A stretch of DNA of 64,000 bases from Hyphomicrobium sp. CS1BSMeth3 (GTDB taxonomy: Bacteria; Pseudomonadota; Alphaproteobacteria; Rhizobiales; Hyphomicrobiaceae). This document shows positions 3,181-17,317 of this stretch, one piece after another. Position 1 is the stretch's first letter. Each line of letters starts with the position of its first letter. The stretch spans positions 310,001-374,000 of the forward strand of contig NZ_FPEI01000006.1 in NCBI RefSeq assembly GCF_900117415.1, read 5' to 3'. The position numbers and the translations under genes are program-made. Under the pieces are notes generated by a model. That model saw only the letters and a list, made by a program, of their open reading frames with translations. It ran no database searches and was not told the DNA's origin.

Positions 3181-3251
3181 GGAGCGCCCGGCGGTCTGAC
3201 GCCAAGGTGGCACAACGTGGATCCGAGCCACGAGCACCCCATGTTGGAGCC

Positions 3252-3647
3252 ATGCCGATGATTGCGCGCCTGCGGTTTCCAGTCGCCCTGATGAGTGTGT
3301 CACTGCTCGGCGCGACCGCGCTAGCCGAGGGCAATGCAGAGAATGGCGAAACCGTCTTCCGGAAGTGCCGGACTTGTCATGAGATTGGGCCGAATGCCAA
3401 AAATAAAGTTGGCCCTCACCTCAATGGGATCATCGGGCGCAAAGCGGCGGCGCGGGACGGCTATGCTTATTCTCCGGTATTCAAAGGGCTTGGTGAGAAG
3501 GGCGTGGTGTGGGACGAAGCAACGCTGCTCAAGTACATCACCAAGCCGAACGACATGGCGCCGCGCAGCAAAATGGTATTTCCCGGCCTGGCTGACGAGA
3601 GCGAGCGCAAGGATCTTCTTGAGTATCTGAAGAAGTTTCCTGAGTAG
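3252..3647 (+). CDS. class I cytochrome c (c2-like)
   Basis: 131-residue periplasmic electron carrier. A cleavable signal peptide ends at ...ATALA before EGNAENG. Heme attaches at C39-R-T-C42-H43, and Met in MVFPGL is the likely sixth ligand. The MAPRSKM...LADESERKDLLEYLKKF tail is typical of mitochondrial/c2-type cytochromes. The ATG at 3252 gives a proper signal peptide and has GGAG upstream; an ATG six bases further on is possible. A FixK-type box lies about 78 bp upstream. In this context it is a candidate donor to the CuA subunit II of the neighbouring sNOR-like complex or to NirK; that pairing is inferred. Confidence 0.9.
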   Translation: MPMIARLRFPVALMSVSLLGATALAEGNAENGETVFRKCRTCHEIGPNAKNKVGPHLNGIIGRKAAARDGYAYSPVFKGLGEKGVVWDEATLLKYITKPNDMAPRSKMVFPGLADESERKDLLEYLKKFPE

Positions 3648-3671: not shown

Positions 3672-4070
3672 TCATACGCCAAGCATCTTGTGCAGGCGTG
3701 CGTCCTTACTCTTGAAGTGATCGACGAACCAGTCCCGCACGGCGCGTCCGAGCGCCTCTTCATAGTCGACAAACGCGCCGCTTTCGTGGGCGTCGATGAT
3801 GTCGCGGATGTCATCCAGCAGCTTCTCGTGATCCGCCTTGTGCGCCGCGTACTCGTCGTATCGATGCTTGCGCATGACCGTTTCCTCGAGGGCAAAATGC
3901 GCGGATATCTTTGCGAACACCTCGCCGAGGAAGCCGCCGATGACTTCTTTTCCTGCGTTGCTCCCGATCTTGCTATGCAGCGCGTTGATAAGGTCCACGA
4001 GTTCCCGGTGTTCGTGATCGACCTCACGAACGCCAGTTTCGAACTCGGTTTGCCATTCGATGAGCGCCAT
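3672..4070 (-). CDS. bacteriohemerythrin
   Basis: 132-residue four-helix-bundle protein with a non-heme di-iron site. Ligands follow the family pattern: His21, His58 with Glu62, His77 and His81, His118 and Asp123. It binds O2 and, in several bacteria, is linked to NO handling. It is the last gene of the minus-strand operon, 8 bp after the preceding stop, so it is very likely co-transcribed with the heme-copper NO reductase-like genes. No signal peptide is seen, so it is cytoplasmic. Scavenging or delivery of O2 or NO to the membrane enzyme is an inference from position. Confidence 0.9.
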   Translation of the reverse strand: MALIEWQTEFETGVREVDHEHRELVDLINALHSKIGSNAGKEVIGGFLGEVFAKISAHFALEETVMRKHRYDEYAAHKADHEKLLDDIRDIIDAHESGAFVDYEEALGRAVRDWFVDHFKSKDARLHKMLGV

Positions 4071-4078
4071 GACTGCTC

Positions 4079-4585
4079 CTATCGGATCGTGAACGTTCCT
4101 TGGTCACTGCTGAAGTCTATTGCGAGATTCTGCTGCGCCTTGAGTTCGATAGTGACCCGGCGCTCGTAGTCGAATCCTTCCATTCTATTGCTGTCGCGCA
4201 GGCGCGCCGTAATCTCGTGCCGGCCGGGCGCAATCGAGAATTTTCGATAGATCCTAGCGGGACCATCTCGAGATAAGCCGGTCGGCTGAATGACGTCATC
4301 ATAGATGGGGACGTCACCGACGAGGAGCTGGACGCGCATCGGCAAGCGCTCGCGCCCGCATGTGTGCGGCCGGCGCTCGCGGGGCGGTAGCTTGGCGATT
4401 TCTTCCGGAGCCAGCCGCCGGCATTCCTCGACGCGCTTCGCGCCATGCGCGAAGCTGAACTTGATCTGCGCCTTGTCCGTCGGGAAATAGACAACCATCG
4501 GCCGGCTGGAGAAGTAACCGATAGCAAGCGCAAGAAGCCCATAGATTGCAGCTTGTCCCACGTATCTTGCCGCGTCGCTAATCAC
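4079..4585 (-). CDS. membrane-anchored protein of unknown function in the sNOR-like operon
   Basis: 168 residues starting from a GTG whose codon overlaps the end of the upstream fusion gene (the stop at 4578-4580 lies inside this gene). One N-terminal transmembrane segment (about residues 8-24, QAAIYGLLALAIGYF) is followed by a soluble, probably periplasmic domain with two Cys and a C-terminal beta-rich stretch (GRHEITARLRD, YERRVTIELKAQ). The topology resembles FixH-type assembly proteins, but I cannot claim homology. Translational overlap with the cytochrome b/ferredoxin fusion suggests it is a subunit or assembly factor of that protein. A longer 257-residue reading would begin inside the upstream gene and is not supported. 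Confidence 0.6.
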   Translation of the reverse strand: MISDAARYVGQAAIYGLLALAIGYFSSRPMVVYFPTDKAQIKFSFAHGAKRVEECRRLAPEEIAKLPPRERRPHTCGRERLPMRVQLLVGDVPIYDDVIQPTGLSRDGPARIYRKFSIAPGRHEITARLRDSNRMEGFDYERRVTIELKAQQNLAIDFSSDQGTFTIR

Positions 4586-6152
4586 GAATGAACTCCTCGA
4601 GTTTTGCCATCCGCTCGGCCACGGCCCGTGACGGCGGCGCGAGCAATTCATCGAGCTCACGCGAGAAGTCCCGAAGCGCGCTGTCGAGTTTGGTGCGTCC
4701 GTCGCGCCCCGCCCACACAACTCTGAGCCGTTCGGCTGGTACGCGTGCGCGCAAGTGCGGGTCGCGGGCCCTCGCAAGGCGTGCTTGCGTCCACCGGATG
4801 CCGAAGCGAGCATGGCCGCTGTTCTCGGAGCATCCGACCAGCACGACGCCATCGGCGAGGTTCTTGCTCAGCACGAAGTCGATGAATGAAGGCGGGAGCT
4901 GGCCGATGCAACGCAAGCTGACCGATGACGTCCCAGGCGGAAGGTTGCTGATGGAGGAACCGTGCTCGCAGCCGAAAACAAGTATGCGACTTTTGCCCTG
5001 CAGAGGCGCGGTTGCCGCGAGCACGGCATCGCGAAGTGCACTGATACTGTGATCGGGCAGATCGATGCCTGGAATTAGGTCGGACGCCGTTCGGAAGGGT
5101 GTCGAGGTCGGGCAGGATCCTGCGCAGATGCCGCATCCCACGCACAGTGCAGGGTTGACGATGGCCTGGCGTTCGAAGGGGCGTCCATCAGTCCGGTTGC
5201 CCATGATGATGGCGCTGTACGGGCAGTCGTTGAAGCATCTCGTGCAGCCGTTGCAATTGGCGAGATCGACCACGGCCGCCGCAGGTTTGCGCATGGGGGG
5301 CAGCCAGGGCATGGCAAGCAGGATCAGCAGCAGTGCTCCCGAGGCACCCCATGTCACCGGGCCCGGCCAGCGGTCCAGCAGCGGGTAGAGCGGCAGGTAG
5401 AACCAGTCCAGCCCGACGGTTGCTGGCACTTTGGCGAGGTCGGCGGGGCCTTGGCTCGTTGCCGGATGCACGAGCGAGAGGGCGAGCAACGCCACGAAAA
5501 CGCCGATGGCAAGGCCGCGCGGTGGATTGATGCGGGGCTTCGTCACGCGCTGGAGATGCACCCAGAGAATAACCAGCGCGATGAGCGGCACCGCGATGTG
5601 CATGAAGACCATGAGCGTGAAGAAGCGGCTCTCGAGCGTGTCGGGCGAGAAGAAGTTGCGCGCGATCGACGCGCCGAAGATGGGCAGTTTGTCGAGCCAC
5701 TCGGTGGTCACGAGCGCCACGTATTGCGCAAGCGTGTCCCAGACCATCCAGTAGCCGGTAATTCCGGCTACGAAGATGAGCACAAGAGCGGGAACGCCCG
5801 TCACCCAACTGAACCAGCGCACGCCGCGATACCGATCCAGCGCAAACTCCCTCAAAAGGTGCGCGATCACAACGACGATGAGCCCGTCCGACGCGTAGCG
5901 ATGGAGGCTGCGCATGACGCCTGCCGCATACCACTGGTCGCGGGTCATGTACTCGACCGAGGCGAAGGCGTCGTGGACGGCCGTCTCGAAAAAGATGAAC
6001 AAGTATATGCCGCTGACCGTGACCACCCAGTAGAAGAAGAAGCCGAGCGCGCCGAGGTTGAGCAACGGGTTCCACTCAGGTGGGAACACTTTGCCAAGCC
6101 CGCTCTCGGCCAGATCGAAGATCCGGCGGATGGAAAGCCGGAGCAGTCTCAT
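4578..6152 (-). CDS. cytochrome b / 2x[4Fe-4S] ferredoxin / FlpD(MvhD)-like fusion protein
   Basis: 524-residue, three-part protein. Residues about 1-270 form a multi-pass cytochrome b6-like unit (LNLGALGFFFYWVVTVSG; His pairs in SLHRYASDG...VIAHLLREF and FMHIAVPLI...LWVHLQRV). Next are two 4Fe-4S motifs, CNGCTRCFNDCP and CVGCGICAGSCP. The C-terminal 150 residues resemble the iron-sulfur subunit of methyl-viologen hydrogenase/FlpD (FGCEHG, LRCIGQLPPSF, VVLVGCSENSG). The start at 6152 forms ATGA overlap with the upstream SCO gene. The layout suggests an electron conduit between the quinone pool and a cytoplasmic or membrane partner. Its placement in an NO reductase-like operon is unusual; redox partners are unknown. 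Confidence 0.75.
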   Translation of the reverse strand: MRLLRLSIRRIFDLAESGLGKVFPPEWNPLLNLGALGFFFYWVVTVSGIYLFIFFETAVHDAFASVEYMTRDQWYAAGVMRSLHRYASDGLIVVVIAHLLREFALDRYRGVRWFSWVTGVPALVLIFVAGITGYWMVWDTLAQYVALVTTEWLDKLPIFGASIARNFFSPDTLESRFFTLMVFMHIAVPLIALVILWVHLQRVTKPRINPPRGLAIGVFVALLALSLVHPATSQGPADLAKVPATVGLDWFYLPLYPLLDRWPGPVTWGASGALLLILLAMPWLPPMRKPAAAVVDLANCNGCTRCFNDCPYSAIIMGNRTDGRPFERQAIVNPALCVGCGICAGSCPTSTPFRTASDLIPGIDLPDHSISALRDAVLAATAPLQGKSRILVFGCEHGSSISNLPPGTSSVSLRCIGQLPPSFIDFVLSKNLADGVVLVGCSENSGHARFGIRWTQARLARARDPHLRARVPAERLRVVWAGRDGRTKLDSALRDFSRELDELLAPPSRAVAERMAKLEEFIRD

Positions 6153-6949
6153 CGGAAGGACCTCATTCCGCGGCCGCTCGAGCGCCACCACTCTCTTATG
6201 AGCGCGAGAACGATCAGGCTAAAGCTGAAGAGCCCGATCCCGACGCTGATAAACAGCGAGTAGTTGAAATAGTAGCGGCCGGATTTGGGATCGTAGACCG
6301 TGCAGAAGTAGCGAATGCGATCGACGAGAATGTCGAGCGACTTCAGAGGTTCGCTGCGCCTGAGGACAAGCGCCTTGAGCGGATCCATGATGATCGGCGG
6401 CTCGAAGACCGCGCCATAGATCTGTTGGCTGACGCGCCCCTCTGCATCGATGAGGCTGACTTGCGCCAGATGATCAAAACCGCCGGCGCGGCTGTAGATG
6501 CCGAAGCCAACCGCCCTTGCCAGCGCGTCGAGGCTCTCCTCGTCTGCGGCGAGGAATTTCCAGTTGGGCAGGTCGATGCCGCGCGTGCGCGCGAACAGAC
6601 GCAATCTTTCAGGCGTATCGTTGCGGATGTCGAAACCGACCGTGATGACGGCGAAGCTGTCCTCGCCAAAGGCTCGGCGTCCGGCTTCGACAGCCGGATA
6701 GAGACTTTCGAGCAGGGTCGGGCAAACGTCGGCGCACCCAGTGTAGATCATGCTGACCAGCAGAGGCTTGCCGCGATAGTCGGAGAGCCTCACCGTGCGC
6801 CCGCTGGTATCGGTGAGCGCGAGATCTGGCAGTTGCTGGCCGAGGGCCGCCTGTGACAAGGCAATGGCATTCTCGGCATTGCTGGCGGCCAATGCGCTGC
6901 TCGGCACGAGGGCGAAAGCCAGCGCCAGCGCAAGGAATTTGCGTCTCAT
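6149..6949 (-). CDS. senC: SCO1/SenC copper chaperone
   Basis: 266-residue thioredoxin-fold protein that metallates CuA sites. An N-terminal signal sequence ends near ALAAS. The copper-binding Cys pair is C72-ADV-C76 and the third ligand is His160 in GGFDHLAQ. There is an extra C-terminal transmembrane helix (SLFISVGIGLFSFSLIVLAL), so it may be anchored at both ends. Its start at 6949 overlaps the ctaB stop as ATGA, and its own stop overlaps the start of the fusion gene the same way, so the three are translationally coupled. It serves the CuA-containing subunit II encoded upstream. senC is also the partner gene in described norSY-senC clusters. Confidence 0.9.
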   Translation of the reverse strand: MRRKFLALALAFALVPSSALAASNAENAIALSQAALGQQLPDLALTDTSGRTVRLSDYRGKPLLVSMIYTGCADVCPTLLESLYPAVEAGRRAFGEDSFAVITVGFDIRNDTPERLRLFARTRGIDLPNWKFLAADEESLDALARAVGFGIYSRAGGFDHLAQVSLIDAEGRVSQQIYGAVFEPPIIMDPLKALVLRRSEPLKSLDILVDRIRYFCTVYDPKSGRYYFNYSLFISVGIGLFSFSLIVLALIREWWRSSGRGMRSFR

Positions 6950-7857
6950 GCCAGCGGTCCGAGTAGCCATCGATCAAGCACGACGCCAGTCAGCAGTAGA
7001 AGGAGCTGGGCCAGCGATGCGAAAAAATTCCGTATCGCATTGCGGCGTGTCGGCGCGCGCGCGAGCCCAATGCTGGCCGCAGTGAAAAGGATGCCGCTCA
7101 CCACGGCGAACGCGAGGTAGATCATCCCCATGCCGAGCGCTGCCGGCGCCAGCGCAATGAGCGACAACGCGACCGTGTGCGCAAGAATGACCTGTGCGCA
7201 GATCCGATCGCCGACCACGAGTGGCAACATCGGAACGAGATTGGCGGCGTAGTCATCACGTGCAGCGATCGCCAGGCTCCAGAAATGCGGTGGCGTCCAA
7301 AGGAACAGGACGACAGCGAGGAGGATCGCCTCGATGGATATGACCGGATCGACGCTGGCGGCTCCGGCGAGCACGGCGAAGCTGCCGGCGAGGCCGCCGA
7401 TCACGATGTTGAGACACGTGCGCCGCTTCAGCCACATCGTATAGACGATGCCGTATGTGAACGCGCCCATGAAGGTGTAGAAGGCCGATTGGGCATTGCC
7501 GGCAATGCCGGCCATGATGACCGCCACTGCGAGCAGCGCCGCGATGCCGCCGAGCCACGCCCATCCGGCATCCAGACGGCCGCTCGCAAATGGCCGGGTC
7601 GATGTTCGAGCCATGCGCGCGTCGAGATCGGCTTCGGCCCATTGATTGAAGGCACCTGCGGCCCCGGCTGCCAGAAGAACGGCGATGGCGACAGCCGCCA
7701 TGCGCCACATCTCGGGAAGAGCTCCTGGAGATATCGCCAGCCCGCCGATCGCGCTGAGCATGATCGACACCGCGATCCGCGGCTTGAAGATGCCCATCAC
7801 TTCCCGGATGGTCAGCGGCTCCCGGAGAATGGCTGCAGCAGCATCAGCCCTGTTCAT
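6946..7857 (-). CDS. ctaB: heme o synthase (protoheme IX farnesyltransferase)
   Basis: 303-residue UbiA-family membrane prenyltransferase that adds a farnesyl group to heme b. The Asp-rich motif is NQWAEADLDARMARTSTRP, the second conserved region is GIVYTMWLKRRT and the WTPPHFWSLA signature is present. About nine transmembrane segments are visible. ATG 7857 follows GGAG at proper spacing; the in-frame extension upstream would run into the hairpin region. It implies that the adjacent heme-copper enzyme uses heme o or heme a in its active site, although no ctaA is seen here. The 195-bp gap to the subunit I gene holds two large stem-loops. Confidence 0.93.
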   Translation of the reverse strand: MNRADAAAAILREPLTIREVMGIFKPRIAVSIMLSAIGGLAISPGALPEMWRMAAVAIAVLLAAGAAGAFNQWAEADLDARMARTSTRPFASGRLDAGWAWLGGIAALLAVAVIMAGIAGNAQSAFYTFMGAFTYGIVYTMWLKRRTCLNIVIGGLAGSFAVLAGAASVDPVISIEAILLAVVLFLWTPPHFWSLAIAARDDYAANLVPMLPLVVGDRICAQVILAHTVALSLIALAPAALGMGMIYLAFAVVSGILFTAASIGLARAPTRRNAIRNFFASLAQLLLLLTGVVLDRWLLGPLA

Positions 7858-7981: not shown

Positions 7982-8053
7982 GTGCCTCTTTTGATTCCGA
8001 AGTTTGCTCGCGACACCAGGATCGGGGTGTGGCGAACTTCGGAATCGGGGCAC
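7982..8053. repeat. large inverted repeat (hairpin 2, just after the subunit I stop)
   Basis: Arms 7993-8007/8032-8046 (GATTCCGAAGTTTGC against GCGAACTTCGGAATC), inner ACACC/GGTGT (8013-8017/8026-8030) and outer GTGCC/GGCAC make a long stem. It begins at the stop codon of the subunit I gene. There is no U-tract, so it is more likely an mRNA stabiliser or processing site, or a repeated palindromic element, than a classical terminator. Confidence 0.75.
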
Positions 8054-9789
8054 TAGCCCATCGGCCAGAGCTGGGAGAGGTACTTCCAGTTGACGAAGTA
8101 GTAGAGGACGAAGGCCGTGAAGAAGACGGACACGAGAATGTACGTGCCCGGCAGCTTCCAGGTGCCCGCATTGCCATAGCTCGACACCGCATCGCCAACT
8201 TGGCGCTGAGGCATGGGGCCGAGCGACTCGACGATGTTCGACGCATCCACGGGCTTGCCCCACAGGACGCTCGCCACGACGATGACGACGAAAAGGGCTC
8301 CACCGATGGCGGCCATGACCGCGGATAAGCCGTTGAGAGCCAGCATCAGGAATGCGGCCGCCGGATAAGCGAAGGACAACGTCGCGTCAGAGAATGCGAC
8401 GTCCCAATGTCGCCGCGCGACGCCGAGCGTGCCTGCGCCCATCATGAAGAGCGAGATGCCCGCGACGCCAATGCCGAAGAGGTAGGGCTGCCACTTCGCC
8501 AGCCGAGGCCATATGACCTGGCGTTGGAAGATGAGGGGCAGCAGCAGGTAGGTGACGGCCATGAAGGCGAGCGTGGTGCCGGCGACGACCGTGGCGTGGA
8601 AATGCCCAGGCACGTAGAGCGTATTGTGCAGCATGATGTTGATCTGCTCGGTGCCGAGAACAACACCGGAGATGCCTCCAAGGAAGCCGAACATCACGAG
8701 CGAGAGGAACATTCCCGAGAAGGCCGGGTTCCCCCACGGTGCTTTCCGCAACCACTCGAAGGCGCCGCGCGTATAGCCGTTGCGCCGCTGGGCAGCTTCG
8801 ATTGCGCCAGGTACGGTCATGCCATGGATCATGCTGCCGAGCACGGCCATGTACATGAAGTACGAGGTGTTGAAGACGCGCCATTCCGCGCTGACACCCG
8901 GCTCCACCAGAAGGTGGTGAGCAGAGGCAAGCTGCAGGAACAGTATGTAGAGGAAAAACGCGGTGCGGCTCACCTTTTCGGAGAGCGGTTTGGCGCCGAG
9001 CAGGATGGCGATGATCGCGTACCAGATCGCGACATGGGCCGATACGTTGACCTGCTGGGAGCTGTGACCCATTGCCCACCAGACGAGCTTGTACATCACC
9101 GTATTGATCTCGGAGATGTAGCCTATTGACCAGAGCCAGGTCGGGATCAGGATGATGGCGCCCGATGCGATCGTGAAAATCGCGATGATACACGCCGTCA
9201 AGGCGCCAAAAGTAACCAGAGGGATCGAGCCTTCGTATGTCTTTTCTTCTTTGGCGATGACCAGCGTGCCGAGAAAGACGAGACAACCGAGCAGCGCGCC
9301 GACCGCGAACAGGATCAGGCCCAGGTAGAAGTTCGGATGCGCCTGGAGTGGTGGGTAGCTCGTGAACATCACGCTCGACTGCCCCTGCAGGACAGTGACA
9401 TTCGTGAGCAGACCGCCGCCCAGCATGAGCACGAAGCCGAGCCAGGCGATGCGCGGCGCAGCCAGCCTGCAGTTGAGCAGAACGGCCGACGCGAAGTAGA
9501 GCACGGCCATCTCGAAGAAAAGGATCCACAGCAGCAGTACATCGAGACCGTGCGCCGTGAGCACGAGATAGAACATGTCGGCAGGCAGCAGATGCACGGC
9601 CTGCCAGCGCGTCAGCGCCACCATCAGGCCGAACAGCCCGCCGATTGCCAGAAACACGATTGCGGCAACGGCATTCGCCTTGATCAGCCGCTGCGCTGCC
9701 AGATCGATCTTGAGACCGCTGGCCGGGCATATGCGGAACCTCGCAGCGATGCCACCGATCACACCCGTCTCAGCAGTTGCCATAGCCAT
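8053..9789 (-). CDS. norS: heme-copper nitric oxide reductase-like subunit I (sNOR type, NorS-like)
   Basis: 578 residues, about 12-14 membrane helices. Low-spin heme ligands His80 (TAHGLDV) and His398, high-spin heme ligand His396 (VPGHFH), and CuB ligands His242, His291 and His292 are all present. In oxygen reductases the residue four after the first CuB His is a Tyr cross-linked to it (HPEVY). Here the motif is GHSSQQ and the residue is Gln246. The alternative Tyr position used by cbb3 oxidases, two residues before the His pair, is Ser289. Without the Tyr the enzyme is expected to reduce NO rather than O2. Neighbours (CuA subunit, SenC, NirK, hemerythrin) match the norSY-senC clusters called sNOR in ammonia oxidisers. 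Database annotation may call it cytochrome c oxidase subunit I. Confidence 0.8.
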   Translation of the reverse strand: MAMATAETGVIGGIAARFRICPASGLKIDLAAQRLIKANAVAAIVFLAIGGLFGLMVALTRWQAVHLLPADMFYLVLTAHGLDVLLLWILFFEMAVLYFASAVLLNCRLAAPRIAWLGFVLMLGGGLLTNVTVLQGQSSVMFTSYPPLQAHPNFYLGLILFAVGALLGCLVFLGTLVIAKEEKTYEGSIPLVTFGALTACIIAIFTIASGAIILIPTWLWSIGYISEINTVMYKLVWWAMGHSSQQVNVSAHVAIWYAIIAILLGAKPLSEKVSRTAFFLYILFLQLASAHHLLVEPGVSAEWRVFNTSYFMYMAVLGSMIHGMTVPGAIEAAQRRNGYTRGAFEWLRKAPWGNPAFSGMFLSLVMFGFLGGISGVVLGTEQINIMLHNTLYVPGHFHATVVAGTTLAFMAVTYLLLPLIFQRQVIWPRLAKWQPYLFGIGVAGISLFMMGAGTLGVARRHWDVAFSDATLSFAYPAAAFLMLALNGLSAVMAAIGGALFVVIVVASVLWGKPVDASNIVESLGPMPQRQVGDAVSSYGNAGTWKLPGTYILVSVFFTAFVLYYFVNWKYLSQLWPMG

Positions 9790-9801: not shown

Positions 9802-10371
9802 TCACTGTGGCTTGCCACCCGCCGCTGACCCGGGCTCGACGACATGAATGCGGCCGACCATGGTGTGGTGGCCGATGCCGCAGAACTCGTTGCACACGAC
9901 GCTGAATGTCCCCGTCTCCGTCGGCGTAAGCGTGATGACGTGCTCGATGCCGGGATGAACCTGAATGTTGATATTCACGGGCTGAAGCGAGAAGCCGTGC
10001 TGCCAATCCAGGGATGACAGATGCAGGCGATAGCTGCGCCCCTTCTCGAGCTCCAACACCGGCCACCACTCCCATAGCCGGCTCAGCATGTAGACGTCGC
10101 CCCCGGCTGGTGGCCGGGCGACCGGAATGCCGGTCGTGCCCTCTTCGCGAACCTTGAACTGTTTCGTGAACGCTTCGGTGCGCTTCTCGAACACCGCGGG
10201 GTCTATGCGGTAAGCTTGAGTGGAAAGGTTCTGGCGCCCTTCGATATGCCAGTAGACCATCGCGCCGAACATCACGAGGCCCCACAGGAAGGCGATCACT
10301 ATCCAAATGATCTCATCCTTTTCGATGGGCTCGTTCCACCAGACGCGCTTCTCGGGAGGATGGATAGCCAC
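9802..10371 (-). CDS. norY: CuA-containing subunit II of the sNOR-like complex (NorY-like)
   Basis: 189 residues with one N-terminal transmembrane helix (about 22-41) and a C-terminal periplasmic cupredoxin domain. The binuclear CuA site is complete: His125 (WQHGFSL), Cys160, Cys164, His168 and Met171 (CNEFCGIGHHTM). It takes electrons from a soluble donor such as pseudoazurin or cytochrome c and passes them to subunit I. The GTG start at 10371 is preceded by GAGGAG. The stop is 12 bp before the subunit I start. The single helix is like subunit II of B-type (ba3) oxidases rather than the two-helix form of aa3. Confidence 0.88.
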   Translation of the reverse strand: MAIHPPEKRVWWNEPIEKDEIIWIVIAFLWGLVMFGAMVYWHIEGRQNLSTQAYRIDPAVFEKRTEAFTKQFKVREEGTTGIPVARPPAGGDVYMLSRLWEWWPVLELEKGRSYRLHLSSLDWQHGFSLQPVNINIQVHPGIEHVITLTPTETGTFSVVCNEFCGIGHHTMVGRIHVVEPGSAAGGKPQ

Positions 10372-10383
10372 GACTCGCTCTCC

Positions 10384-10563
10384 TCACTTCGCAATGGGCA
10401 TCTGAGTGAGCTCGATGAGCCCCCAGAGAATGTAGAAGACGGTCGGGATCGTGACCCCGAGGAACAGGAGCAGAAACGGGTTGTCGAGAGCCCGTTGCAT
10501 TGCCGGAATGCGTTCCGGCGGCGAGACCGACGCGTGTGGTTGCTGTTGCCCTGCATTCGCCAT
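10384..10563 (-). CDS. 59-residue single-pass membrane peptide, first gene of the sNOR-like operon
   Basis: The sequence has a polar N-terminus, one transmembrane helix (NPFLLLFLGVTIPTVFYILW) and a short tail. A strong purine-rich RBS (GGGAGGGAG) precedes the ATG at 10563, and the stop is 12 bp upstream of the subunit II GTG. Small one-helix subunits such as the IIa subunit of ba3-type oxidases have this size and placement, so it is probably an accessory subunit of the complex. I cannot show homology. A FixK-type box is centred about 80 bp upstream of its start. Confidence 0.7.
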   Translation of the reverse strand: MANAGQQQPHASVSPPERIPAMQRALDNPFLLLFLGVTIPTVFYILWGLIELTQMPIAK

Positions 10564-10635
10564 GGTGGGCTCCCTCCCGAAGCTGATGGCCCGAAGCTGA
10601 TGGATTGAAACTGAGTGTCTGCACAGTTTCGTTCC

Positions 10636-10649: not shown

Positions 10650-10830
10650 GCGTCCATCCGCGCATGTCAGCGCAGCGCGCGCGGTTGCGCGCGTGCCTGC
10701 TCATGGATGCGGTGCTGGCCGTGTCGGCTATCGGCAGGAAGTTTGCTGCAGCACAAAGAGGCTGTTTTGCGCCGCACCTAATCTTTCTTCGTAACATCCA
10801 GGCAAGACCAGCTCACGAAGGAGACAGGTC

Positions 10831-11934
10831 ATGTTCACCAGACGCGAGACACTCATGAGCGTCGCCGGCGCCGCTGTCGTCGCCGCGATGCCGGCAGCAC
10901 CTGCGGCCGCACAGGAGGCGGCCAATATCGCCAAGCTTCCTCGCAAGAAGGTAACCCTGGTGCAGCCTCCGTTCGTCCATGAGCATGATCAGGTGGCCAA
11001 GGGCGGCCCGAAGGTCGTCGAGTTCACGATGACCATCGAGGAGAAGCCGGTCGTCATCGATGATGAGGGCACGGTTCTCCAGGCCATGACCTTCAACGGC
11101 TCTATTCCGGGCCCGATGATGGTGGTTCACGAGGGGGACTACGTCGAGCTCACGCTTGTCAATCCGGCAACCAACGAGATGCCGCACAATATCGATTTTC
11201 ACGCTGCTACGGGTGCGCTCGGCGGCGCCGCACTGACGGACGTCAATCCCGGCGAGGAGGTCAAGCTGCGCTTCAAGGCAACGCGGACCGGTACCTTCGT
11301 CTATCACTGCGCGCCCAAAGGCATGATCCCCTGGCACGTCGTCGCGGGCATGAGCGGAACGATCATGATCCTGCCGCGCGACGGCCTGAAGGACGAGAAG
11401 GGCAAGCCGGTCCGTTACGATAGCGTCTACTATATCGGCGAGAACGAGTTCTACATTCCGCGCGATGCCAACGGGAAGTTCATCAACTACAAGACGCTTG
11501 GCGACAGCTTCCCCGAGACGCTCAAGGCCATGCGCGGTCTGATCCCGACCCACGTCGTCTTCAATGGCCGCGTTGGTGCGTTGACCGGCAAGAATGCGAT
11601 GACGGCGAAGGTCGGCCAGACCGTCCTGTTCGTCCATTCTCAGGCCAACCGCGATACACGGCCCCACCTGATCGGTGGCCACGGTGACTACGTTTGGGAG
11701 GAAGGCAAGTTCGCCAATCCACCGGCCAAGGATCTCGAGACTTGGTTCATCCGAGGCGGATCTGCGGGAGCGGCTCTCTATAAGTTCCTTCAGCCGGGCG
11801 TCTATGCCTACGTCAACCATAACCTGATCGAAGCAGCCGAGCTTGGCGCGACGGCACACGTGATCGTCGATGGGAAGTGGAATGACGACCTGATGACCCA
11901 GGTCAGCGCACCAGGGCCGATACGGACTAACTAG
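10831..11934 (+). CDS. nirK: copper-containing nitrite reductase (NO-forming)
   Basis: Reduces nitrite to NO in the periplasm. 367 residues with a Tat-type signal (TRRETLM). All metal ligands are visible: type 1 copper His119, Cys160, His169, Met174; type 2 copper His124, His159, His330; and the catalytic pair Asp122 and His279. Spacing matches the Alcaligenes/Achromobacter class I enzymes. The RBS is AAGGAG. It is divergent from the sNOR-like operon, with a FixK-type box in the 267-bp intergenic region. A GC-rich hairpin separates it from nirV. The product NO is the presumed substrate of the divergently encoded reductase. Confidence 0.97.
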
Positions 11935-12023: not shown

Positions 12024-12881
12024 ATGAAACTTCAAGCTGCCAGTGTTGCCGCCATCAGCGTACTCGCGATCGCAGCGGGTGCTGCCCTGCTGCAACCGAG
12101 CCATCGGGCTGCACCATCCTTGATCCAGACCGTAACGATCAAGCCGGCTTACTTTGCCTATCGCCTGCCGGGTGAGTTTCTGGCGGACGGCCGCGTCGTC
12201 GATGCAGCACGCTTCGATGCAAGTCCGAGGCACCCACTCGAAATCATGACCTATCAGGTCAGCGCCGCTGAGTATGCCGCCTGCGTTGCCGACGGGGCCT
12301 GCCAGCCGGCCGACAGCTCGGGAGCCGCTAAAGATCTTCCTGTAACGGGTGTCAGCTACCTGGATGCCGTCCGCTACGCCGAATGGTTATCTTCGAAAAC
12401 GGACGAGAGCTGGCGTCTGCCAACGGACGAGGAATGGGCGTTCGCCGCTGCCGAGCGGCTTGGTGACGATGCGCTCGGCAATGCCGATAGCGAGATCGCC
12501 AATCCAGCGGCGCGATGGCTCACGGCCTACCGCGAGCGCAACGCGCGCGAGGGGCGCGATACCCTGCCGAAGATGAGAGGCCATTTCGGCGCCAACAGCC
12601 GTGGCCTGTATGACATCGCCGGCAACGTATCGGAGTGGACTAGCACTTGCTACACGCGCACACACGTTGATGCAGCCGGCAAATCTGTGCAACGGACCGA
12701 GAATTGCGGCGTGCGCGTCACCGGCGGTCAGCATCGCGGATATATGACCAACTTTCTCCGCGACGGCAAAAGCGGGGGCTGCGCCGCCGGCATGGCGCCC
12801 GATAACCTCGGCTTCAGGCTCGTGAAAGACCCTGCACCATCGTTTGCGCGTCGCCTGTGGCAGGGTATGGCGAGAGGCTGA
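12024..12881 (+). CDS. nirV: NirV, formylglycine-generating-enzyme (SUMF1) domain protein
   Basis: 285 residues with an N-terminal hydrophobic anchor or signal (about 7-22) and a SUMF1/FGE-type domain (YQVSAAEYAACVADG, WRLPTDEEWAFAAA, GLYDIAGNVSEWTSTCY, GFRLVKD). nirV is the usual partner of nirK and is thought to help maturation or function of the nitrite reductase; its exact reaction is not known. Conserved Cys residues in the C-terminal third (STCY, ENCGV, GGCAAG) are kept. It is separated from nirK by 89 bp that includes a hairpin, so it probably depends on read-through. Confidence 0.9.
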   Translation: MKLQAASVAAISVLAIAAGAALLQPSHRAAPSLIQTVTIKPAYFAYRLPGEFLADGRVVDAARFDASPRHPLEIMTYQVSAAEYAACVADGACQPADSSGAAKDLPVTGVSYLDAVRYAEWLSSKTDESWRLPTDEEWAFAAAERLGDDALGNADSEIANPAARWLTAYRERNAREGRDTLPKMRGHFGANSRGLYDIAGNVSEWTSTCYTRTHVDAAGKSVQRTENCGVRVTGGQHRGYMTNFLRDGKSGGCAAGMAPDNLGFRLVKDPAPSFARRLWQGMARG

Positions 12882-13102: not shown

Positions 13103-13540
13103 TCAATCGACCGGTACCGTCGCGAGGAGGTCGGCAAAGACCTTCTTGGCCCTGCCAGGATGCGTCACTGCTTTGGCCTCTTCGAGATTCACGGGGTCAC
13201 CAACCAGGATCAGCGCGACCATGCCCATGCCGTAATGCGGGGTGCATTTGATCCCGTAGACGCCCTGAGCCGTCAGCTTGACGGTAAACTCCTCGTTGAT
13301 CTTGCTCTTGAAGAGCTCGGCTCCCTCAGGAAGCATGCCCTTGATGGCTTCGGCGTTGTGCGACTTGTCCGTCGGCACGAAGCGGATTGTGTCTCCCGGC
13401 GCCGCCTTCACCAAATCCGGCACGAACACCATCGCGCCTTTCTCGCCCTTGTTGAGCATGAGCACTTCATGCTCGGCCGCTTGAGCGCCACCCGCGAGCA
13501 TAAACGCCGCGAGGGCCGCCATTGCGATTGTCCGATTCAT
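13103..13540 (-). CDS. paz: pseudoazurin
   Basis: 145-residue periplasmic blue copper protein that donates electrons to NirK and related enzymes. The signal peptide ends at GGAQA. Type 1 copper ligands are His in SHNAEAI and Cys, His and Met in GIKCTPHYGMGM. ATG 13540 is preceded by AGAAAGG at good spacing; ATG 13546 is an alternative. It is divergent from a Crp/Fnr regulator gene. Its genomic place suggests it is the electron donor shared by NirK and perhaps the CuA subunit of the sNOR-like enzyme. Confidence 0.93.
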   Translation of the reverse strand: MNRTIAMAALAAFMLAGGAQAAEHEVLMLNKGEKGAMVFVPDLVKAAPGDTIRFVPTDKSHNAEAIKGMLPEGAELFKSKINEEFTVKLTAQGVYGIKCTPHYGMGMVALILVGDPVNLEEAKAVTHPGRAKKVFADLLATVPVD

Positions 13541-13704
13541 GATCATTGCCTTTCTGCGTGACACCTCGTTCGGTATCACTATTTTGATAGGCCGATCACA
13601 GCCGGCCGACGTTGTGGAATCACAAACAAAAGGACCAAGGGGCCGCGCGCGGCGATGCTTGTCACGCCTGTTGGGGCATGGGACAGTCAGCCAAAACGAG
13701 GAGT

Positions 13705-14415
13705 ATGCCGGTGGTCCGTCTTGACCGTGCTTTAATCGCCGGCCTGCCGCTTTTTTCCGGCATGGCACCCGCCGATCTCGACAAAGTGCTGGAAGGCGCG
13801 ACATCTCGGCGCGTCGCGAAAGAGGGCTTCATCTTCGAGCAGGGCGGCGAAGCCACTTCCTTCTTCGTGCTCCTCGACGGGCGCGTACGCGTCGTAAAGA
13901 CAACCCCGGACGGTCAGCAGGTGATTGTGCGCTACATCGTGCCTGGCGAAGTGCTCGGTATCGCCCGGGCTCTTGGCCGCAACACCTATCCTGCAAGCGC
14001 AATCGCTGTCGTCGATTGTGTTCTGCTCGCGTGGCCGGAGCGCCTGTGGCCGGAGTTCGCGGCGGCCTTCCCGAGCTTTGGCGCCAATACCTATAAAATG
14101 ATCGGCCAGCGGCTCGATGACGTCCAGACGCAAGTTGTCGAGATGGCTACGGAGCAGGTCGAGCAGCGGGTTGCTCACGCGTTGTTGCGGCTGGTCCAGC
14201 AGACCGGCAAGAAATCGAGTGACGGCATTCTGATCGATTTTCCAATCTCACGGCAGGATATTGCCGAGATGACCGGCACGACACTGCACACCGTCAGCCG
14301 ACTGCTCACCGCGTGGGAGCAGAAAGGACTCGTCAAGAGCGCGCGCCAGCAGGTCACGATTGTTGCGCCGCATCGCTTGCGCCTATTGGCCGACGGGCAG
14401 ACCGACAGCGAATAG
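13705..14415 (+). CDS. Crp/Fnr-family regulator (NnrR/Dnr-like)
   Basis: 236 residues: a cyclic-nucleotide-type beta-roll sensor (about 10-125), a dimerisation helix and a C-terminal winged helix (SRQDIAEMTGTTLHTVSRLL). No N-terminal Cys cluster for a 4Fe-4S centre is present, so it is not an FNR oxygen sensor. That absence, and its place beside pseudoazurin and nirK, suggests an NO-responsive NnrR/Dnr type. The Ser/Arg in the recognition helix fits binding to TTGAC-N4-GTCAA boxes, three of which lie in this window. ATG 13705 has ACGAGGAG upstream. Confidence 0.85.
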   Translation: MPVVRLDRALIAGLPLFSGMAPADLDKVLEGATSRRVAKEGFIFEQGGEATSFFVLLDGRVRVVKTTPDGQQVIVRYIVPGEVLGIARALGRNTYPASAIAVVDCVLLAWPERLWPEFAAAFPSFGANTYKMIGQRLDDVQTQVVEMATEQVEQRVAHALLRLVQQTGKKSSDGILIDFPISRQDIAEMTGTTLHTVSRLLTAWEQKGLVKSARQQVTIVAPHRLRLLADGQTDSE

Positions 14416-15638: not shown

Positions 15639-17006
15639 TCAGCGGTTGGACGCAGCAGGTAGAAACAGGCGCGGCACGCGTGCACCTTCGGGAAGGCGCG
15701 CTTCCGGCGCCACGTTGTGCAGCCGGCGAGCAAGTATCAGCTCGGCGATTATGATGATCACGGCGATGAGCGTTGTCGCCGCGGCGGCGCGCAGCAAGCC
15801 CGGAGCTTCGGCGAGGAGCGCACCGGTTCCGATCGCGACGCTCGCAAAATAGAGTACGAACCACGGCTCAACCCGTCGTTCGACGACGAGATCCTGTACG
15901 CGAGGCGTCGGCCTGCGGCCCATGACGGGACCGTAGCATTCGAGCCATGTCAGGAACGGCACGATTTTGTAGAGCTGAGAGAGGCCAAGGCCGGAAAGCC
16001 AGCCGAAAGCGAACAAGTATGTGATGGCGCCCGCATGCACGTCGAGGGTGCCACGAACGGCGGCAGCGATGAACAGCGCGATAGCCGCATAAAGCGCGAC
16101 AAGGGCGCCCCCTGCCGCCCTGAGATTGAGCTCGGTCTTGCGTCGCTTGCGGTTCCTATAGAAGAAGGCGATATCAGTACCGTAGAGGACGACTGAGCCA
16201 AGAGCCAGGGCTCCTGCGACTGCCAAGACTATGCTCACTTTGGTACCGGCTGCCGCTCCGACCAACACCATGAGAGGCATCACGGCGACGACTAAGACGA
16301 GCGCCATGCTGAGGCTCAACCACGCCACGCGGCCAGTCGCGCGTTCCGTATCTGGGGACAGCATGAACATGGGCAGCAGCCGGTAGCTGACGCCGATCGC
16401 TGTACAACTCAGCCAACCTCCAAAGCCGGCAAGAGCGTGATACGGAACGGCATTCGCGTGCAGTTCGACGAGAGTAGACGTTGCCGTCACGCCGGAAAGA
16501 ACGAAAGCAAAGCTGCCGCCCAGAAGGAATGTGCCGCCTAGTGAGGCGAGGCCTGTTGCGACGAACCGGGCCGACAAGGGCAAGGTTGGTGCGTCGAGCA
16601 TAGTGCGTGCGAGGGGCCAGATAGCCGTCAAGAAACCCGCGGCAAGAAGAACGCCCCCCCATGCGAGCAGCGGTAGTTCGATCTCGACAACGCCGGCGAG
16701 ACGCAGAAACCCCGCGAGAAGGAGGCCCAATCCGGCAAGCAGGCTCAGCAGGGCGGGCAACACCAGCGCCTGATCGCGCAATGGCTTACCCACCAGGACT
16801 GGCACAAACTGGAAGAGTGCGCCGAGTATGAGCAGACTGAGCCAGCCGATCGCCACGAGGTGCACGATCACAAGCGTCTCTGGCGCTCTCAAGCCAGTCT
16901 GGGGATAACCAAATCCTGCCGCGATCGCCGTCAAACCTGCAAGCAGGCACAGCAGTGCAGCGGCAAAGTATGCCATCGTCCAGCGCGAGATGGATGCGCC
17001 AAGCAT
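15639..17006 (-). CDS. polytopic membrane protein (about 12 TM), NnrS/heme-copper-like, function unknown
   Basis: 455 residues, about 12 hydrophobic helices. Conserved-looking intramembrane His occur in VHLVAIGWLSLLILGALF, ELHANAVPYHALAGFGGW and LDVHAGAITYLFAFGW, followed by Gln/Tyr/Lys (QLYKIVPF). The pattern His-x3-Gly-Trp-(L)2 on several helices resembles heme-binding membrane proteins such as NnrS and heme-copper oxidase relatives, but it lacks the full CuB His set. It heads an operon with DUF2249 and DUF59 genes. The ATG at 17006 has a weak RBS, and ATG 16976 is possible. An NO-response role is likely from context. Confidence 0.65.
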   Translation of the reverse strand: MLGASISRWTMAYFAAALLCLLAGLTAIAAGFGYPQTGLRAPETLVIVHLVAIGWLSLLILGALFQFVPVLVGKPLRDQALVLPALLSLLAGLGLLLAGFLRLAGVVEIELPLLAWGGVLLAAGFLTAIWPLARTMLDAPTLPLSARFVATGLASLGGTFLLGGSFAFVLSGVTATSTLVELHANAVPYHALAGFGGWLSCTAIGVSYRLLPMFMLSPDTERATGRVAWLSLSMALVLVVAVMPLMVLVGAAAGTKVSIVLAVAGALALGSVVLYGTDIAFFYRNRKRRKTELNLRAAGGALVALYAAIALFIAAAVRGTLDVHAGAITYLFAFGWLSGLGLSQLYKIVPFLTWLECYGPVMGRRPTPRVQDLVVERRVEPWFVLYFASVAIGTGALLAEAPGLLRAAAATTLIAVIIIIAELILARRLHNVAPEARLPEGARVPRLFLPAASNR

Positions 17007-17317
17007 CGATCGAGACCATCAGTTGCGAAGGCGTCCTGTATCTAGGCACAAAACATGTATCAATGATATATATTTTATTGTGAGGGTGCTGCTGTGGCTC
17101 AAGATGGCGATCGTGTCGATGTGAGAAGCGTCCCGGCCTGAGGTCGCTTGCAGCGTATGACCATACGAGCGCGCCGGGGAACAAAGGTGCAGGAGACACA
17201 ACCGGCTGGTTGGCAATTTGATCCGCGTCAAAGTAGCGTGAGTAATAAGAGACATATAAAATACATCTATCAGGCAATCTTTGCTCGCCCGATCGTGCAA
17301 CGGGCAAGGAGGAGCTA
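17007..17317. other. divergent promoter region
   Basis: 311 bp between divergently transcribed genes. It contains two AT-rich tracts (about 17045-17090 and 17240-17280), unusual for this GC-rich window and suitable for promoters, and the FixK-type box listed separately. No coding sequence is supported. Confidence 0.6.
17218..17231 (+). promoter_or_regulatory. FixK/FNR consensus box
   Basis: TTGAT-CCGC-GTCAA is the best FixK/FNR match in the window. It is centred about 94 bp before the GTG of the second Crp/Fnr gene and about 218 bp before the 12-TM gene, so it probably drives the regulator gene. Confidence 0.75.

Follow-up and report, generated by a model that had tools for sequence, protein, structure and literature searches.

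A glutamine-bearing heme-copper protein beside nirK in Hyphomicrobium: a probable eNOR with conserved partner genes

Genes of the locus and active-site residues

The window, by which we mean the whole stretch of DNA analysed, comprises 64,000 nucleotides of a contig of the alphaproteobacterium Hyphomicrobium sp. CS1BSMeth3. It contains a minus-strand operon around a heme-copper subunit I gene and, divergent from it, the copper nitrite reductase gene nirK (Table 1). Subunit I is a B-type heme-copper protein of 578 amino acids. Its open reading frame fills its interval exactly, and the plus strand of the same interval is interrupted by stops. Because the protein matches Pfam COX1 (224.7 bits, residues 35-468) and the Thermus thermophilus ba3 oxidase structure, it is no chance reading frame. 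The ba3 enzyme is its best match among solved structures (139 bits, about 25% identity), and Foldseek agrees.

Table 1. Features of the nirK-eNOR region of the window. Locus counts refer to the best 80 of at least 576 named relatives (70-97% identity).
Feature	Position	Strand	Remarks
Small c-type cytochrome (c-550 like), candidate electron donor	3207..3647	+	PF00034; NF043008 99 bits, below cut-off
Bacteriohemerythrin	3672..4070	-	NF033749 108.5 bits, above cut-off; 66/80 loci
Membrane-anchored beta-sandwich protein	4079..4585	-	invariant Cys pair; GTG start inferred; 67/80 loci
Cytochrome b / 2x[4Fe-4S] / FlpD fusion	4578..6191	-	about six membrane helices, LDWFYLP; start uncertain; 76/80 loci
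SCO1/SenC copper chaperone	6149..6970	-	PF02630; 78/80 loci
Heme o synthase (CtaB/CyoE)	6946..7857	-	TIGR01473 252 bits, above cut-off; start uncertain, ORF open from 7917; 64/80 loci
Probable eNOR subunit I	8053..9789	-	heme b, high-spin heme and CuB; Gln246 replaces Tyr
Probable eNOR subunit II	9802..10371	-	complete CuA site; Glu20 invariant; 79/80 loci
Small single-helix protein, upstream of subunit II	10384..10563	-	start is an ATG inside the stretch 10384-10572; 78/80 loci
TTG-N8-CAA site, possible FNR/NNR-type box	10743..10756	+	between nirK and eNOR operon
nirK, copper nitrite reductase	10831..11934	+	TIGR02376 531.7 bits; divergent from eNOR operon
FGE-sulfatase-like protein	12024..12881	+	PF03781; adjoins nirK also in L006 and L029
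Pseudoazurin, candidate electron donor	13103..13555	-	TIGR02375 168.5 bits
CRP/FNR-family regulator	13612..14415	+	family matches

The original prediction had placed six metal-binding histidines at positions 80, 242, 291, 292, 396 and 398, and all of them lie there. Gln245, Gln246 and Ser289 were likewise read correctly, with Gln246 standing in place of the cross-linked Tyr. When subunit I is aligned to ba3, His242 falls on His233, and Gln246, four residues further on, falls on Tyr237. Thus the cross-linked Tyr of helix VI, the mark of B-type O2 reductases, is absent. The prediction was mistaken on one point, in which Ser289 was named as the equivalent of the alternative Tyr of cbb3 oxidases. 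The equivalent residue is Leu285, six residues before the His pair, as judged from the cbb3 of the same host, which reads YIWAGPHH and whose Tyr we take to be the cross-linked one.

The same residues were followed in 242 sequences, consisting of the best 120 of 8000 matches to the window protein, the best 120 of 1575 matches to a Thermus plasmid protein that is 46% identical to it, and the two queries. These are the top-scoring neighbours of each query rather than a random sample, and all 242 (121 + 121) have Gln at the Tyr position. The His pair was located by pattern in 170 of the 242 sequences and not in the other 72; in these 170 the position of Leu285 is occupied by Ile or Leu, and no Tyr was seen in helix VII. 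Within a 51-row alignment reaching down to 41% identity, Gln246 is invariant, as are His242, His291, His292 and His396, while His80 and His398 are kept in at least 90% of the rows. The motif GHFH is replaced by GHFK in the enzymes of Thermus and HR23 (L087 11983-13668, P0133, P0141, P0154); the Lys takes the place of the second His, which by homology would be a heme b ligand.

Directly upstream of subunit I lies the partner subunit with the complete CuA site that had been predicted (His125, Cys160, Cys164, His168 and Met171). Each of these residues, as well as Glu20, is kept in 89 of 89 aligned sequences, with two genomes counted twice. In subunit I, Tyr257, Ser319 and His322 are invariant in the 51-row alignment. 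The equivalents of these three and of Glu20 of subunit II presumably line the proton channel of ba3. The likeness to the T. thermophilus enzyme thus includes K-channel-like residues; two channel positions differ, however, in addition to the replacement of Tyr237, since the window protein has Val for Tyr244 and His for Thr312. Because of these two exchanges the proton path predicted from the alignment is not the ba3 path unchanged.

Relationship to eNOR, sNOR and other NO reductases

The eNOR family is said to go back to Hemp and Gennis in 2008. We assign the window protein to it, as a CuA/CuB NO reductase related to the B-type O2 reductases, with a probability of about 0.85, NO being the probable substrate on the strength of residues, tree and gene context. 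Table A4 of an earlier study, which lists active-site residues, assigns Asn to sNOR and Gln to eNOR (PMC8756737). Passages of the same study report eNOR from many Alpha-, Beta-, Gamma- and Deltaproteobacteria, where it often goes under the wrong name of oxidase, and a passage of another counts eNOR among the biochemically characterised NO reductases, citing Murali 2024 for the characterisation (PMC11388526). The window protein has the features of this family: Gln for Tyr, a B-type-related subunit I, a separate CuA subunit II encoded upstream, and the usual misnaming as cytochrome c oxidase. Moreover, it shares a nirK neighbour with the eNOR of Ardenticatena, in which both lie in one operon (PMC4653789). 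What sets it apart is that the operon here adds heme o synthase, SCO, the cytochrome b/Fe-S/FlpD fusion, the beta-sandwich protein and hemerythrin. It is therefore a further member of an already published family, and the exchange of Tyr for Gln is in itself not new; what is less familiar is its set of conserved partner genes.

A phylogeny of subunit I had been proposed as a check. The 52-row maximum-likelihood tree, whose references include three NorY, four cNOR subunits of ammonia-oxidizing bacteria (AOB) and two C-type proteins, recovers a clade of 26 Gln-bearing (QQ) rows with 99/99 support. It stands apart from nine Tyr-bearing B oxidases (100/97), three sNOR (100/100), and the A, C and cNOR proteins. 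Within it, the window protein groups (99/99) with QQ proteins of Thermus, Chloroflexi (Caldilinea, Anaerolineae) and Armatimonadota. It does not group with cNOR or C-type proteins in this tree, which has no qNOR row. Several long branches meet in the tree, the sNOR stem included, and three odd proteins without the full CuB His pair attach by long branches close to the Gln clade.

The clade is connected with published eNOR by the Gln mark, by the distribution and by one Thermus record, the tree rows containing no biochemically tested eNOR. A search with the Thermus query returned, among the matches listed, proteins of Thermus, Armatimonadota, Anaerolineae, Caldilinea and Burkholderiales. The record, P0141, is an N-terminally truncated multispecies Thermus sequence, which we take to be the Thermus entry of the published eNOR tree. 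In that tree, as far as the part concerned goes, a Thermus entry has a missing N-terminal region (PMC8756737).

The original prediction had called the protein an NO reductase beside nirK, outside the cNOR type, and this part is supported by Gln246, the tree and the gene context. It had also called it an sNOR, and this label has to be given up. The succession of a CuA subunit, a B-type-related subunit I lacking the Tyr and a SCO/SenC gene does recall norS-norY-senC of AOB. For comparison we used the AOB family, picked because a true nitrosocyanin exceeds the cut-off in one of 398 Pseudomonadota genomes. NorY was present in three of the ten AOB genomes whose PF00115 proteins were taken (L195-L197); the CuA subunit gene adjoins all three and a SenC/SCO gene two of them (L195 and L197). 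These NorY proteins, however, read GHVFIN, with the Asn of sNOR, and form a distant clade of their own, the Tyr-bearing B oxidases being nearer to the window protein than they are. sNOR subunit I is also shorter (about 500 amino acids), and the gene order here is subunit II-subunit I-heme o synthase-SCO, with further genes on both sides. Finally, searching 81 AOB-family genomes with the window protein yielded nothing above 29.4 bits, 25 of them having any match, and 27 of 28 fetched AOB loci show HPEVY or HPWVY while one gave no motif. An sNOR identity is thus rejected by residue and tree position, and we consider it highly improbable. The bNOR/qCuANOR of Bacillus azotoformans, compared by description and not as a tree row, is likewise a B-type-related NO reductase with a CuA subunit, a small extra ORF and a SCO gene, but has, in the sections of its description that treat the site, Asn at the Tyr position (PMC3475470).

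Conserved partner genes of the operon

The genes downstream of subunit I recur with it. When only the 65 of the 80 loci with at least 5 kb of downstream sequence are counted, SCO and the cytochrome b fusion are found in 65, the beta-sandwich protein and hemerythrin in 64 each, and heme o synthase in 51. Another ten stretches of genomic DNA, of which L203 and L204 come from the same genomes as L007 and L014, all have the small ORF, subunit II and SCO with subunit I, and seven have the cytochrome b fusion. As for the other three, two (L199, L202) are cut off by the end of their contig, and in one the gene is carried by a different contig (L229, genome G088). In L229-L231 the cytochrome b gene is away from eNOR, still beside the beta-sandwich gene and nirS.

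A survey of 398 Pseudomonadota genomes, the host included, found the cytochrome b fusion together with the Gln-type subunit I in 30, eNOR only in one, cytochrome b only in four and neither in 363 (cytochrome b at E ≤1e-20, at most three candidates scored per genome). Fisher's test gives p ~1e-39 with relatedness ignored, many of the genomes sharing a family. In the single eNOR-only genome (G108) the contig ends soon after SCO, and the four with cytochrome b only (G160, G176, G184, G317) are incomplete or fragmented. On the two Thermus plasmids, none of the five extra operon proteins was found in the 12 and 8 kb flanks of the relatives.

In the cytochrome b fusion, 74 sequences longer than 420 residues all keep four His to bind two hemes, eight Cys to hold two [4Fe-4S] clusters, and the Asp-Trp of LDWFYLP, a motif reminiscent of PEWY in cytochrome bc complexes. 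In the window's copy of this fusion Gly459 replaces the fourth FlpD Cys, which is Cys in 71 of the 74. The beta-sandwich protein is tied to the membrane by a single anchor, and its Cys pair is invariant in 59 sequences; neither Pfam nor NCBIfam yielded a family for it, and structure comparison gave no informative neighbour.

A description of this pair of proteins was not found in the portions of the literature that our search reached, and possibly they form an undescribed partner module. We tentatively propose, as a possibility to which we give somewhat less than even odds, that the eNOR of Pseudomonadota is the core of a dedicated NO-respiration system with obligate partners and not a stand-alone two-subunit enzyme. 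The six-helix diheme cytochrome b, with its Qo-like LDWFYLP and its cytoplasmic 2x[4Fe-4S] and FlpD parts, and the beta-sandwich protein would supply the NO reductase with electrons or take part in its maturation, so that electrons from quinone or from low-potential cytoplasmic donors would be coupled to an NO reduction that conserves energy. In any case the near one-to-one co-occurrence is a testable handle on the electron supply of eNOR, which is unsettled in those parts of the literature that we covered.

Host genome, proposed pathway and nirK side

The host genome (6.02 Mb, 99.8% complete) encodes NarG (2171 bits) and a single nirK above cut-off. Models of clade I and clade II nosZ found no nosZ in it, the best scores of 23 and 37 bits both falling on the CuA domain of subunit II. 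Its PF00115 proteins number five, namely three aa3 oxidases with HPEVY, one cbb3 and the window protein. This search found neither cNOR nor qNOR in the host, and it does detect cNOR subunits in AOB genomes (241-253 bits). Since narG and nirK are present and no cNOR or qNOR was found, the window enzyme is the host's only heme-copper NO-reductase candidate, flavorubredoxin and flavohemoglobin lying outside the search. The simplest reading is that the host reduces nitrate to N2O with the Gln-type enzyme as its only heme-copper NO reductase, and very likely N2O is its end product. NO reductases set the community emission of N2O, a greenhouse gas. Because oxidase names are commonly given to members of this family, such a narG-nirK host would be scored as having no NO reductase.

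The gene is patchily distributed. Of four congeners searched, G003 has a homolog and G001, G002 and G004 have none, and in a set of 39 relatives close homologs, with 80% identity or more, are present in G003, G010, G019 and G024, in the last as two contig pieces. Of the 398 Pseudomonadota genomes, 31, counting the host, contain a homolog with 50% identity or more, which in one of them is a short fragment. Heme-copper-like proteins of 457-477 amino acids without the CuB His pair were seen in L104 (G017) and L109 (G019), and in L014 (G019) and L029 a gene for such a protein is found within a few kb of eNOR. Another heme-copper-like protein, of 558 amino acids (L108, G010:C63), shows FHNMHYLP and YHMF where the CuB motifs usually stand and sits on a very long branch.

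NirS-like or nirK genes lie in the fetched flanks of 30 of the 80 related loci. NirS-like genes account for 28 of these loci: 17 are at least 42% identical to Thermus NirS, three are partial at the locus edge, and eight, at 26-34% identity, may be NirN or NirF instead. Linkage to nirK is rare (2/80 loci).

These data also bear on whether the protein could be a high-affinity O2 reductase that does without the cross-linked Tyr and reduces NO as a side reaction. Its relationship to B-type enzymes and its ba3-like CuA fit such a role, and an oxidase function has been argued for the N. europaea sNOR from its induction under O2 limitation, in the part of that work dealing with it (PMC6967387). Tyr is at neither known position, however, and Gln is found throughout the best-listed sequences. 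Moreover, the gene is linked to nirK, nirS or other NO genes in several lineages, and the host already has four oxidases and no other heme-copper NO reductase was found. We regard an O2 reductase as quite unlikely.

In the pathway that we propose for an eNOR, NirK would release NO in the periplasm, and the small cytochrome c or pseudoazurin might deliver electrons to CuA of subunit II. From there they would pass to heme b and on to the heme/CuB pair (His396; His242, His291 and His292), at which two NO would be converted to N2O and water. With Gln246 at the site of the redox-active Tyr, the one-electron donor needed in O2 splitting would be missing, and two-electron NO coupling could do without it. 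Protons would come from the cytoplasm through the K-channel-like path described above, so that NO reduction may be electrogenic. Assembly would be the task of SCO, heme o synthase and possibly the beta-sandwich protein, hemerythrin may buffer O2 or NO, and the cytochrome b/Fe-S/FlpD protein would be a dedicated electron-transfer partner, in either direction.

The enzyme might instead detoxify NO at low turnover. Such a role would suit the hemerythrin in the operon, the presence in one of four congeners, and the NO-responsive genes near the Thermus relatives. On the two plasmids opened, the relative adjoins nirS in T. thermophilus pTF24b and a multicopper oxidase gene in pHB5018d; it is followed on both by an Rrf2 regulator, and pHB5018d carries a protein annotated as DUF542. 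Complete metal sites, a candidate proton path and a co-occurring electron-transfer protein fit respiration, however, as does a narG-nirK host in which no other heme-copper NO reductase was found, and we consider detoxification unlikely.

Strains of T. antranikianii produce N2O without detected nor genes, which the authors, in the passage concerned, blame on primers (PMC9270275). Two T. antranikianii proteins, P0133 and P0135, are Gln-type subunits I. As an alternative to the primers, the Gln-type enzyme may explain this N2O.

We take the FGE-sulfatase-like protein beside nirK to be NirV-like. The window contains 16 TTG-N8-CAA sites, where 9.6 are expected and 4 of 100 shuffled sequences had that many. 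Three of them lie in divergent intergenic stretches, between nirK and the eNOR operon (the site in Table 1), between the pseudoazurin and CRP genes (13612-13625) and between a 455-amino-acid ORF and a CRP gene (17218-17231). Three sites in these 748 bases have a chance of about 0.001 (Poisson), the stretches having been chosen after the sites were seen. This placement suggests an FNR/NNR-type control of nitrogen-oxide genes. The 455-amino-acid protein (15639-17006, minus strand) belongs to no Pfam, NCBIfam or PADLOC family. It has many predicted membrane helices and its gene adjoins DUF2249 and FeS_assembly_P genes, an order that is repeated in L006.
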